Below the pieces are notes generated by a model. That model made no database searches, was not told the origin of the DNA, and saw only the letters and a list, made by a program, of their open reading frames with translations. DNA of 64,000 nucleotides, taken from positions 1 through 64,000 of the forward strand of contig NZ_ATXI01000010.1 of assembly GCF_000421605.1 (NCBI RefSeq), written 5' to 3'. Positions 757 through 5,559 of this stretch are shown here, piece after piece (position 1 is the first letter of the stretch; each line of letters begins with the position of its first letter). Source of the DNA: Thermodesulfobacterium thermophilum DSM 1276 (GTDB lineage Bacteria > Desulfobacterota > Thermodesulfobacteria > Thermodesulfobacteriales > Thermodesulfobacteriaceae). A program made the position numbers and the translations under genes.

Positions 757-1206
757 ATGCAGAAAAAGGCCATAGTTATAGGAATAGGCAACCCTAACTT
801 TAAAGACGATGGGGTTGGGTATAAGATAGTAGAACAGCTGGAAGGTTTGGTAGATACTGTTTGTTTGCTTAACACAGACCTAAAGGTAATAGATGCGATG
901 TTAGGGTATGACGTTGCTATCATAGTTGATGGAGTAAAGATAGGAGTTGAACCTGGGACGATAGTTGAGATTGACCCGTTTAAAACCTTTGATAAGGTTT
1001 ATGCCAGCGGTACTCATAGTCTTACAGTTTTTGAGGTAATAAGGATTGGTTATCAAGTTTTTCAAGAAGAAATGCCTAAGGAGATAAAGATCATCGGGGT
1101 AGAGGTAGAAGACATAGATACTTTGGATAGAGATTGTAGCCCTAAGGTTAAGGCAGCCATTCCTAAGGTAGTAGAGATTATCAAAGAATATTTAGGGCTA
1201 ATTTAG
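757..1206 (+). CDS. Hydrogenase maturation protease (HybD/HycI family)
   Basis: A 149-residue nickel-dependent endopeptidase that trims the C-terminal tail of a hydrogenase large subunit after Ni insertion. The N-terminus carries the family signature GIGNPNFKDDGVG. The acidic residue in this motif, the Asp of the VDG segment and the His of GTHSL correspond to the three Ni-contacting residues known from HybD. Length is normal for the family (about 150-160). It follows the large subunit, its likely substrate, but a terminator lies between them, so it may have its own promoter; a TATAAT stands at 745-750, only 6 bases before the ATG, and I see no good -35. Its 3' end overlaps the convergent phosphate transporter gene by 26 bases. 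Confidence 0.93.
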   Translation: MQKKAIVIGIGNPNFKDDGVGYKIVEQLEGLVDTVCLLNTDLKVIDAMLGYDVAIIVDGVKIGVEPGTIVEIDPFKTFDKVYASGTHSLTVFEVIRIGYQVFQEEMPKEIKIIGVEVEDIDTLDRDCSPKVKAAIPKVVEIIKEYLGLI

Positions 1207-2122
1207 TCAACAGAAACGCAAGGGTTACTGAAGTCGTAAGTGTAAATACCCAGTTGATACCTATTTTTTTGATCAGGTCTAATTTGATGGTTTTAAATCC
1301 TTTGGTGAGGCCAACACCAGTTATCCCACCTATGATGCAATAGGTGGTTGAGATAGGCATCCCTAATAAAGTAAAAGAAAAAATACATAATCCTGCCCCA
1401 AACTGAGCTACAAAACCTGAAAGAGGGTCTAAAGAGGTAATGCCTTTTCCTACGGTTTCTATTACCCTGTGGCTGAGTAAAACAGCTCCCAGAAAGATAA
1501 GGGTTGAGGCGATAAAATAGAGTAATACTTTATTTAAGCTTAATCCTGTATACATCACCGGACCAAGGACTGTTGCCAATTCATTAGCTCCGGTATTATA
1601 AGAGATGAGGGAAGAACTTATTAATAAGAAAATCTTTAAAAGGTTTTCTATCCTAAAAAAAGGCAACCTGGAAGTAATCCTGATCACCAGTTTGTATAGA
1701 AAAAAGCTTACTAAACAGGCTATTATAGGTGAGATAAGCCAGGAAACCACTATCTTTATTAGAGAAAAAACGTTAACACTGAGGTTTAGAGCCAAACCAC
1801 TACCGATAAGGCTTCCTATGATAACCTGATGGGTAGATAGAGGAAGTTTTCTCCAGTTGGAAAAAAGTATTAACAATGCCGATAACAGCAGTGAGAGGGT
1901 TAAACTAAGAGGAGTGGTTTCTACAAGGGATTTACCTACGGTTTTCATCACTTTATCTCCGTTAAATAAAACCCCAAGAAAAACCAGCACCCCAAAAAGA
2001 AGTACAGCCCTTTTAAATCGGATTATCCCTGCTCCGATCGAGATACCAAGAGCGTTTGAAGCGTCGTTTGAACCTATACCAAAGGCAATCAAAAGGCTGG
2101 CTATGATGGCAATTTCTATCAT
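1181..2122 (-). CDS. pit: PiT-family inorganic phosphate transporter
   Basis: A 313-residue integral membrane protein of the PiT family, which moves phosphate across the inner membrane coupled to H+ or Na+. The two duplicated signature segments are visible: GSNDASNALG near residue 17 and YNTGANELATVLGP in the second half, each followed by runs of hydrophobic helices. It is short compared with E. coli PitA (about 500) but typical for the compact bacterial and archaeal PiT class. It is the last gene of a minus-strand operon after a DUF47 protein (13-base gap) and a CBS protein; the PiT-DUF47 pairing is common and points to a regulated phosphate uptake unit. Family members can also carry sulfate or metal-phosphate complexes, so substrate is inferred. 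Confidence 0.92.
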   Translation of the reverse strand: MIEIAIIASLLIAFGIGSNDASNALGISIGAGIIRFKRAVLLFGVLVFLGVLFNGDKVMKTVGKSLVETTPLSLTLSLLLSALLILFSNWRKLPLSTHQVIIGSLIGSGLALNLSVNVFSLIKIVVSWLISPIIACLVSFFLYKLVIRITSRLPFFRIENLLKIFLLISSSLISYNTGANELATVLGPVMYTGLSLNKVLLYFIASTLIFLGAVLLSHRVIETVGKGITSLDPLSGFVAQFGAGLCIFSFTLLGMPISTTYCIIGGITGVGLTKGFKTIKLDLIKKIGINWVFTLTTSVTLAFLLTKLALNIL

Positions 2123-2135
2123 AGATAAGGGAGGA

Positions 2136-2792
2136 CTACCTTAAACTAAGGTCTAACAAATAAAGATAATCGCTTGCATCCTCTATGACGTCGCTAACAG
2201 ACACAAGAGCATCAACAAAGTCAGACATAATCTTTCCTTCCCAGTAGTTAGTAATCTTACATAAGTTGCAATTTCTTATCTTTTCTATAAGTTCCAACTT
2301 GATTTCATCTACCTTTTTTTCTAAAATTCTTATGGCAAGATTTCTTTCTCTGATGTTGTCTTTAGTCCAGAGTGCCTCAAAGGATTTTATCAGGATCTGA
2401 CACATCTCAACGTTGATGTGGGCTATCCTTAAACACTCTTCTTCTATGTTTTTATAGGTGAGTCCATAGAGGTCAGAATTTAAGATGTAGCGATACTCAA
2501 AGGCACAAACTTTCATATGGTCAAAGGCTTTTTCGATGATTTCGATAAAGTTGCAAAGGTTAGGTCTTATGTAAGGTAAAAAAGCCCCCTCATAGATGAT
2601 ACCTATGATCTCTCTTTTAAGAGAGTCTGCCTCTCGTTCAAGATTTTCTATACAATAGGTTTGTTCAAAACTCTCTTGAAGCAAGGTCTCTTTTAGACAT
2701 TCTGTAGCAGCACAAAGGGTTTTAAGGTATTCTTGAATTTTGGTTATGGCTTTTTTTTCTAACTTTCCTCCACCTAAAAGTTTTTCAAGCAT
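2136..2792 (-). CDS. DUF47 / PhoU-like regulatory protein
   Basis: A 218-residue all-helical, PhoU-related protein of the DUF47 (TIGR00153) family. It is rich in Glu/Lys heptads, and the run of helical segments with scattered acidic residues (for example ENLEREADSLKREI near residue 50) fits the E/DxxxD metal-binding pattern of PhoU folds. Genes of this family nearly always sit beside PiT transporters and are thought to modulate them. Here it lies directly before the PiT gene and 15 bases after the CBS gene. A ribosome-binding site GAGAGGG precedes the ATG. The family call is good; the mechanism is unknown. Confidence 0.85.
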   Translation of the reverse strand: MLEKLLGGGKLEKKAITKIQEYLKTLCAATECLKETLLQESFEQTYCIENLEREADSLKREIIGIIYEGAFLPYIRPNLCNFIEIIEKAFDHMKVCAFEYRYILNSDLYGLTYKNIEEECLRIAHINVEMCQILIKSFEALWTKDNIRERNLAIRILEKKVDEIKLELIEKIRNCNLCKITNYWEGKIMSDFVDALVSVSDVIEDASDYLYLLDLSLR

Positions 2793-2807
2793 ATCTTTAA
2801 CCCTCTC

Positions 2808-3209
2808 TTATTTTTTAGCCTGTTCTATTAAAACATTGTACAAAACATCAAAAAAAGACACCACCCCTATGATTTTTTTGTTTTCATCAGTGATAAAAAC
2901 ACGCGCTATGTTATGTGAGTTCATGATCTCTAAGATTTTTTCTAAGGGGGTGTCTTGAGAAACACAGAGAACAGGCTTCGAGGCTATGTCACCTATTTTT
3001 ATCTTATGAGGGTCCAGATTCTTAGCTAATACCTTAAAAATGATATTTCTTACCGTAACTACCCCATAGGAATCATCATGATTTTTAGGTAAGACTAACA
3101 ACGACCTGATACGTTTGTCAATCAACCTTTCTATAGCATCATAAACCGTAGCGTCTGCAGATATGGTTTCAAGTTTTTTATTCATGATGTCTTTGGCTAC
3201 TTTTCCCAT
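2808..3209 (-). CDS. Two-CBS-domain protein
   Basis: A 133-residue protein that is essentially a CBS pair, a module that binds adenosyl nucleotides or other ligands and signals to a partner. The first CBS unit opens with KDIMNKKLETISADATVYDAIERL and the second follows IASKPVLCVSQDTPLEKILEIM. I chose the ATG at 3209 over the one at 3221 because a purine-rich GGGGGGAG lies just before it and because family members normally start a few residues before the DIM motif. It is the promoter-proximal gene of the CBS-DUF47-PiT operon, so it may sense energy state for phosphate uptake; that role is inference. Confidence 0.85.
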   Translation of the reverse strand: MGKVAKDIMNKKLETISADATVYDAIERLIDKRIRSLLVLPKNHDDSYGVVTVRNIIFKVLAKNLDPHKIKIGDIASKPVLCVSQDTPLEKILEIMNSHNIARVFITDENKKIIGVVSFFDVLYNVLIEQAKK

Positions 3210-3246
3210 CTCTCCCCCCATAGTGTTTTAATTGTTTATAAAATAC

Positions 3247-4100: not shown

Positions 4101-4146
4101 CCAGGAGAGGTATGTCTAAGAACCTCTCCTGGAAGTTTAGTTTTTT
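4101..4146 (+). terminator. Hairpin terminator between convergent genes
   Basis: A perfect 11-bp inverted repeat (CCAGGAGAGGT 4101-4111, ACCTCTCCTGG 4122-4132) with a 10-base loop lies 35 bases after the 168-residue gene. On the plus strand a T run follows at 4141-4146, 8 bases beyond the stem, so it is a slightly offset terminator. The minus strand lacks a T tail. Confidence 0.55.
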
Positions 4147-5443
4147 AGTCCTTAGGTTCTATTTTGTATTTTCCGTTTTCAAAACTCACGTTAGCGTTGA
4201 GATAATAGGCCTTAAACCCTGCTCTTTTTAAAATATTATAAGCCATTTCAGCCCTAATACCTGTTGCACAATGAATAATTATGGTTTTGTCCTTAGGGAT
4301 TTCGTTTAATCTTTTTTCAAGTTCTCCCAAGGGGATGTTTACCGCATGGGGGAAGCTACCTTCTTGAGTTTCGTTTACTTCTCTTACGTCAAGGATGAAG
4401 TAGTTAGCAGGTAGGGTAGGAGATTTAAGTAGTTTTTTAAACTCTTCCACAGAGAAGGTGCCAGGCCTGGGTTTATGAACATAAACTATCTTAGAGGAGG
4501 GTTTCCCTACTTCAACCTTACCTCCTGCTTTTTTCCAGGACTCTAATCCGCCAGGAATGTAGGCTATGTTGGTGTATCCCCAGTTTTTAATGATATTGAT
4601 AGCTAATAAAGCTCTTTCGTCTTTTTCATCATAAACGAAGATGGGAGCGTTTTTCTGTTTAGGAAATTGCTTTTTAGCAGCTTTAAGTTTTTCAAGAGGA
4701 AGGTTTACTGCCCCAGGTATGTAGCCTTTTTCTGCCAAGGTCTTAGGCCTCAGGTCTATAAGCACAAAAGATACTCCCTGAGAAATTTCTGAAAGGATAT
4801 GTTGAGGTTCTACTGCTACTGGGAGGCCTGCTTTTTTCCAGGCAGGTATACCTTCTACAAAGCCTTTAACGTTTGCATATCCAAGAGAAGCGGCCACACT
4901 GACCGCCGCAGGGGTTAACGCTCAGCGTGGACCTTCACAATATACCACAGCTAAAGCTTGCTTATCTTTCAAGACTTCAGGTAGTTTCTTCCCAAACTGA
5001 GCCAAAGTAAGGTTGATAGCCCCAGGTATATGTCCTTCAGCATACTTGGCAGGAGGTCTAACATCTATGATCAACGCTGACTTTTGTTCTACCAGTTTCT
5101 TGACCTCCTCTAAACCTATTCTTTTTTCTTCTGGAAACTTAACCGGAGGTTTTACTGCTATGATAGAGGCATATCTTTTACCGTCTTTTTCTGTATAGAC
5201 AACCTTTATAGGGGTGCCTTTGTTAAGTTTGTTTAAAGGTTGGTCCCAGTAAAGCACCTTTACCTTGTCGTCAAAAAACACGTCAAGATTTTGACCGGTA
5301 TCAAGTTGAAGAAGCCCAGCTTTTTGAGAAATGGAAATAAGATTGCCCCAAAGTTCATTAGGGGCTGAAACCTTGTGACACCCAGGTTGAACACATGAAG
5401 GAAGAGCCTGTTTGATCCCTGGCTCTCCTGGAGCAGAAGTCAT
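4145..5443 (-). CDS. Exported multi-domain rhodanese with in-frame TGA, probable selenoprotein
   Basis: Read through the TGA at 4922-4924 this gene gives 432 residues with three rhodanese domains. Rhodaneses move sulfane sulfur using a catalytic Cys. From the ATG at 5443: a C-x4-CH motif (C17-H23), a small beta-rich region (about 33-99), rhodanese 1 (about 105-210) with loop C169-E-G-P-R-U174, rhodanese 2 (IFVYDEKDER) with no catalytic Cys, and rhodanese 3 with the active loop HCATGIRAE. The TGA sits where homologues have the second Cys of YCxGPxC, and both halves share one frame. A SECIS-like hairpin follows. No ribosome-binding site is properly spaced for the ATG at 5443. Upstream codons encode a signal-peptide-like stretch (KKYLVALGVSSLFFSLSIGI) that joins an ATG at 5516 only if one T (5510) is removed. 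Sec is favoured; a gene with two lesions is the alternative. Confidence 0.75.
4890..4921 (-). other. SECIS-like hairpin after the in-frame TGA
   Basis: After the TGA (4924-4922) come 12 bases, then a five-pair GC stem (GCGGC 4909-4905 with GCCGC 4894-4890) closing the 10-base loop GGTCAGTGTG. The loop begins 17 nt after the TGA and starts GGUC. The E. coli fdhF SECIS, as I remember it, has its loop 17 nt after UGA and contains GGUC. Two consecutive GCG alanine codons, unlike the GCT/GCC-rich neighbours, make the 5' arm, which suggests selection on RNA structure. Confidence 0.65.
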
Positions 5444-5559
5444 CTCCTTTATCCCTATACTTAAACTAAAAAATAAAGAGGAGACTCCTAAGGCTACCAG
5501 ATACTTTTTATTTCATAAAATGGGACCTATAAATGTGGTGTCTATAGAACCAAGAGGTC

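Follow-up and report, generated by a model that had tools for sequence, protein, structure and literature searches.

Why does a gene for a three-domain rhodanese carry a stop codon within its first active-site loop, and is the gene broken or read through? The question is raised by the minus strand of a 64,000-nucleotide stretch of DNA from the heat-loving sulfur bacterium Thermodesulfobacterium thermophilum DSM 1276; the whole stretch is called the window here. The locus looks like one member of a widespread, barely described enzyme family present in several bacterial phyla, and not like a broken gene.

An in-frame TGA in a rhodanese active loop

Read through the TGA, the coding region (4145 to 5443, minus strand) yields 432 amino acids, numbered from the ATG at 5443, and the TGA at 4924-4922 is its sole in-frame stop. 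The codon stands in the context V-V-Y-C-E-G-P-R-(TGA)-A-L-T-P-A-A-V and takes the sixth position in the active loop of rhodanese 1; as judged from the homologous column and from the selenocysteine (Sec) machinery of the genome, it would specify Sec as residue 174. The preliminary description had placed an in-frame TGA where homologs have the second Cys of this loop, with the frame going on into the rest of the fold, and both points are borne out: 66 of 100 homologs have a TGA there, and the read-through product contains three PF00581 stretches (172 bits; E value, 4e-51; curated Pfam cutoff, 22.2). The same read-through frame is found in the congeners G013 (98% identical), G006 (94%), and G010 (86%), and the homolog of Thermodesulfobacterium hveragerdense DSM 12571 (L051) is 94% identical. 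dN/dS against three congeners is 0.09 to 0.17 before the TGA and 0.12 to 0.15 after it; on this sequence comparison, purifying selection acts on either side of the codon. Independent genomes carry the same TGA, and close relatives, inspected for random lesions, keep it while their coding regions are otherwise free of stops.

When homologs were aligned for Cys/Sec alternation, as the preliminary description had proposed, the Sec174 column was found to hold 66 TGA codons, 23 Cys, and 11 Gly, the last with an altered loop representing a third form. On a tree of 97 rows, built with the loop columns left out, 9 Sec/Cys changes are needed, from 7 (Cys) to 8 (Sec) of which are unavoidable given the well-supported branches. 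One clade has a shortened rhodanese 1 loop (e.g., YCVG--GC or YDIG--GC) and mostly keeps the heme motif described below; it has 10 members on the tree, and the loop is found in L026-L028, L094, L100, L113, L114, L121, L124, L126, and L128. In one metagenome-assembled genome (G024:C46, locus L057), the homolog falls into two pieces where the frame shifts immediately ahead of the TGA, which probably reflects an indel made in assembly.

The SECIS hairpin and the Sec machinery

If the TGA is read as Sec, a SECIS element should follow it, and the preliminary description had named a GCGGC/GCCGC hairpin with a GGUC loop. The element is real and covarying, and the pairing register first given to it was wrong by two bases. 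In the homologous register, nucleotides 15 to 21 after the UGA pair with nucleotides 27 to 33 (GGCGGUC/GGCCGCU) in a seven-pair stem closed by the loop AGUGU; on the window this upper hairpin spans 4889 to 4907 of the minus strand, with arms at 4901-4907 and 4889-4895, the loop at 4896-4900, and a conserved loop G at 4899. The register first proposed was rejected, since it leaves only 63% of cells paired and is fully paired in 1 of 60 sequences, compared to 91% of cells for the homologous one. The hairpin lies at a fixed distance from the UGA in homologs. Its four inner pairs form in all 60 distinct Sec sequences compared to 35 to 83% in Cys forms, no gaps being needed. Bacterial SECIS hairpins carry a G within the first two loop positions, and here it stands at position 2 in 59 of the 60 compared to 9 of 23 Cys forms; the hairpin is thus lost in the Cys homologs. 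Among 49 of these Sec sequences, the 91% of paired cells compares with 78% in shuffled alignments and 33 to 53% in slid versions, and the covariation score of 0.381 compares with 0.138 after shuffling, with none of 500 shuffles as high; double changes are seen at pairs 15-33, 16-32, 18-30, and 21-27. Single-sequence folding of the hairpin region is uninformative (z = 0.31), and a search of the window and of the region around the TGA returned no SECIS family from Rfam. The GCG codons of the paired arm had been called untypical, and indeed GCG makes up 7% of the Ala codons in the window; three of the five GCG codons of the gene sit within seven codons after the TGA.

The rest of the genome was searched for selA, selB, selC, and selD, as had been suggested. 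SelA, SelB, and SelD were all found by profile matches (618, 388, and 342 bits, respectively), together with a tRNA-Sec (anticodon, UCA; 80.9 bits), and the selD gene of this genome itself holds one TGA. Beyond this genome, tRNA-Sec is present in 22 of the 23 genomes that have a homolog. With the Sec/Cys alternation and the covarying hairpin, these findings make it almost certain that the UGA at 4924-4922 is decoded as Sec174 by SelB and tRNA-Sec at the downstream SECIS. Loss of the Sec machinery was considered as the cause of the patchy presence of the gene in the genus and was rejected, since tRNA-Sec occurs in 13 of 14 genomes and the gene in 4. The same genome also encodes a large molybdoenzyme (L149, G000:C12:37755-38639) with a 1018-amino-acid open frame and one in-frame TGA, which is probably a selenocysteine formate dehydrogenase.

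Domain architecture and the missing start of the window copy

What kind of protein surrounds this residue? The N-terminal part contains a heme c attachment motif, CVQPGCH (CX4CH; residues 17 to 23, positions 5375 to 5395), whose C, C, and H are each kept in 93 to 94 of 100 homologs and are invariant in a 25-member N-terminal alignment. In most homologs the motif is CXXCH; the CX4CH form is common to Thermodesulfobacterium, G018-like, and Thermodesulfovibrio-like members, which make up one clade of the tree (besides the window protein, L021, L052-L055, and L098). Lys41, in an SxKA motif, is more than 90% conserved and might be a heme ligand; no conserved sixth ligand is obvious. The motif is followed by a predicted six-strand OB-like domain (residues 29 to 98, positions 5150 to 5359), which in AlphaFold2 models has CusF (2vb2) as its best Foldseek match (E value, 6e-4).

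Three rhodanese domains follow, modeled by AlphaFold2 with a pLDDT of 93.9 and a pTM of 0.84. Rhodanese 1 (positions 4820 to 5125; best PF00581 stretch, 112-205) contains the Cys/Sec loop, in which Cys169 (positions 4937 to 4939) takes the canonical catalytic position as the partner of Sec174 and is found in 95 of 100 homologs. Rhodanese 2 (positions 4484 to 4819) keeps the fold in the model and has a YDEKD loop without a catalytic Cys, the start of the loop being without Cys in 92 of 100 homologs. Rhodanese 3 (positions 4148 to 4450) has the canonical loop C392-A-T-G-I-R-A, whose C, T, G, and R are invariant in all 100, including the catalytic Cys392 (positions 4268 to 4270). A fold search found no solved structure with the whole domain arrangement. 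In one subclade (L033, L035, L036, and L040-L042), the heme motif is absent and Sec is mostly kept in these paralogs, so heme is not needed for Sec; L040-L042 are separate Sec forms without the motif, which three Caldimicrobium-like genomes carry in addition to the form with the shortened rhodanese 1 loop.

The start of the gene is missing from the window copy. Compared to G013 and G006, about 63 bp are missing just upstream, including a GGGGG ribosome-binding stretch and the ATG, and the nearest remaining ATG is out of frame; the deletion zone corresponds to window positions 5444-5520. What is left is a signal-peptide remnant, NKKYLVALGVSSLFFSLSIGIKE (positions 5444 to 5512, minus strand), in frame and without a start codon of its own, where the relatives read MNKKYLVALG... 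with an ATG and an upstream GGGGG. The window copy may therefore be poorly expressed or mislocalized, and either an allele damaged not long ago or a fault of the assembly may lie behind it. The deletion does not touch the Sec site. Of the preliminary account of the protein the Sec reading stands; the heme c motif had been missed, and the 5' deletion of this strain has to be added. Its description as exported would hold for the homologs, whose N-terminal hydrophobic leaders were judged by eye, and is doubtful for the window copy, whose start codon is lost. As read from their sequences, the homologs are predicted to be exported proteins with a heme c motif, a CusF-like OB domain, and three rhodaneses.

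Known relatives and a possible role in sulfur metabolism

The preliminary description had suspected that rhodanese-like selenoproteins were already listed in selenoproteome surveys, and they are: entries date from 2005 (Sargasso Sea, PMC1088965), and five forms are given in PMC13188914. Form 5, TsoB (NF045694), has the same loop, F-Y-U-A-G-L-T-U-V-R-S, so that Sec174 is the counterpart by homology of the second Sec in TsoB, and Cys169 that of the first. Of 59 family members, 20 match TsoB at an E value of 1e-20 or lower (best, 1.1e-27). However, TsoB is a fusion of a rhodanese with a DsbD-like part and has two Sec residues (UxxxxU), compared to CxxxxU in the window protein, which scores 65 bits against a TsoB cutoff of 805; TsoB itself has no match in the window genome at an E value of 1e-60 or lower. 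Form 1 (WP_010941598.1; Table 1 of PMC13188914) has the motif UxxS, which fits the U-x-[LM]-[ST] of our family, and Geobacteraceae (Geomonas and Citrifermentans) carry the Sec form. Compared by this motif only, form 1 may belong to the triple-rhodanese family; neither a heme nor a triple-domain description of it was found in the literature examined. Form 3, rhodanese_LYCAU (NF041203), is a one-rhodanese (seleno)protein whose Sec likewise lies in the region of the loop, and it matches domain 1 at 67 bits. Its spacing, however, is CxU, its only domain covers 126 positions, and the score is below its cutoff of 115 bits.

The best sequence and fold matches of the window protein are tandem rhodaneses, namely, Pseudomonas aeruginosa 1yt8, YnjE, and EanB, the structure entries of the last including a persulfided Cys412. 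Global TM-scores are low (0.2 to 0.3), indicating that the domain arrangement differs from all three. A functional analog is Sud, a periplasmic polysulfide-sulfur transferase of the rhodanese type that passes sulfane sulfur to polysulfide reductase; it is a single domain and is not known to carry Sec or heme. Its structure (1qxn, "sulfide dehydrogenase") matches the window protein in sequence at an E value of 5e-7. No NCBIfam model (June 2026) reaches its cutoff on the window protein, and the best NCBIfam matches across the 59 members are other rhodanese families. Hence, the novelty lies in the heme/OB/triple-rhodanese architecture; rhodanese selenoproteins were already known, with the same loop in TsoB.

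Genomic neighbors were examined next to the family members. In 8 loci (Thermodesulfovibrio-like and Geomonas), the family gene is directly followed by that of a multiheme cytochrome, mostly of ~630 amino acids with 8 to 9 CXXCH motifs, and in 7 Cys-form loci a PhsA-like molybdoenzyme lies within ~4 kb. The window gene has neither neighbor and no conserved operon. Upstream of it lies what we take, from its sequence, to be a ComM-like Mg-chelatase, and downstream an open reading frame without a Pfam match; a promoter and terminator scan gave hits at chance level only. The multiheme partner has no match in the window genome, and two PhsA-like proteins encoded away from the gene score below the family cutoff. 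Directly upstream of Thermodesulfovibrio-like members, a small single-rhodanese protein, probably exported, is encoded divergently (L054:5279-5821, L053:5277-5747, L052:5265-5735, and L098:5181-5678). Elsewhere in the window, positions 1181-3221 of the minus strand encode a Pit-type phosphate transporter (PF01384), a PhoU-like DUF47 protein, and a CBS-domain protein in a row.

What could such a protein do? We propose that it is a sulfane-sulfur oxidoreductase of the periplasm, with cytochromes as its electron partners. That the gene encodes a Sec174 selenoprotein whose homologs are periplasmic c-type cytochromes with three rhodaneses, linking sulfane sulfur to the respiratory chain, has in our judgment a somewhat better than even chance of being right; the heme motif, the leaders, the invariant CxTGxRA, the paired Cys and Sec/Cys of the loop, the high-confidence model of three rhodaneses, the cytochrome and PhsA-like neighbors, and the match to Sud all point this way. 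Against it count the absence of such neighbors at the window gene and of the multiheme partner from its genome, the paralogs that keep Sec without the heme motif, the want of an obvious conserved sixth heme ligand, and the loss of start codon and ribosome-binding site in this copy. The estimate covers the whole scheme, in which rhodanese 3 would draw sulfane sulfur from thiosulfate or polysulfide, bind it as a persulfide on Cys392, and hand it to Cys169 of rhodanese 1. Sec174 would then attack the Cys169 persulfide, releasing HS- and forming a Cys-Sec selenenyl sulfide, and electrons from the heme and partner cytochromes would restore the thiol and selenolate. The enzyme would act as a reductase or, in reverse, as an oxidase in sulfur disproportionation, with rhodanese 2 and the OB domain as structural or docking parts.

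The main rival is a thiol/disulfide or peroxide oxidoreductase in which CxxxxU is a redox switch and the rhodanese fold a scaffold. Uncharacterized selenoproteins are mostly thought to be redox active (PMC13188914), Cys and Sec form a redox pair, and the heme and cytochrome neighbors point to electron transfer; yet the canonical CxTGxRA loop of rhodanese 3 in all 100 homologs and the PhsA-type enzymes near Cys forms argue against it, and we regard this reading as unlikely, though deserving of weight. Considerably less probable is a role in selenite, tellurite, or selenium handling by chalcogen oxyanion reduction, modeled on ExtH of the Geobacter ext cluster, a rhodanese-like protein whose cytochrome/porin cluster has been linked to the reduction of selenite and tellurite (PMC5877670). 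A weak profile similarity speaks for it (window protein to the ExtH model NF040901, 16.7 bits; neighboring cytochrome to ExtN, 21.6 bits); against it, both scores are far below the 200-bit family cutoffs, and no porin was recognized among the annotated recurrent neighbor clusters.

Sec decoding is commonly incomplete, so the UGA could instead be a regulated stop, with a 173-amino-acid cytochrome-rhodanese and the full-length product both of importance; the truncated form would miss part of rhodanese 1, however, and the Cys homologs yield full length only, making this very improbable. Least of all do we credit a pseudogene or sequencing error, in which the TGA would be a nonsense mutation or a miscalled TGC/TGT: the strain does carry a 5' deletion and its genome is a 46-contig draft, but the same TGA recurs in congeners and across phyla, the SECIS covaries, dN/dS stays below 0.2 after the TGA, and the Sec machinery is present, and Sec/Cys alternation with purifying selection on both sides excludes such an origin for practical purposes.

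Returning to the sulfane-sulfur oxidoreductase, a broader proposal is put forward tentatively, with clearly less confidence than the narrower one: that a hitherto undescribed and widespread cytochrome c/OB/triple-rhodanese selenoenzyme family ties Cys/Sec sulfane-sulfur chemistry directly to heme electron transfer, and that through it thiosulfate, polysulfide, or elemental sulfur enters respiration or disproportionation in the periplasm. How the disproportionation of elemental sulfur begins is described as unknown in PMC8780430. Expression of periplasmic rhodaneses is on record for cable bacteria and, at a high level, for a sulfur disproportionator (PMC13047784). The family may be overlooked in surveys of the sulfur cycle, because the TGA likely splits its genes in annotation and no NCBIfam model covers it. 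A heme-linked Cys/Sec rhodanese that Thermodesulfobacteriota have in common with Nitrospirota offers a concrete candidate for a step of sulfur metabolism in the periplasm, and the natural pairs of Sec and Cys forms allow a direct test of what selenium contributes to sulfur transfer.
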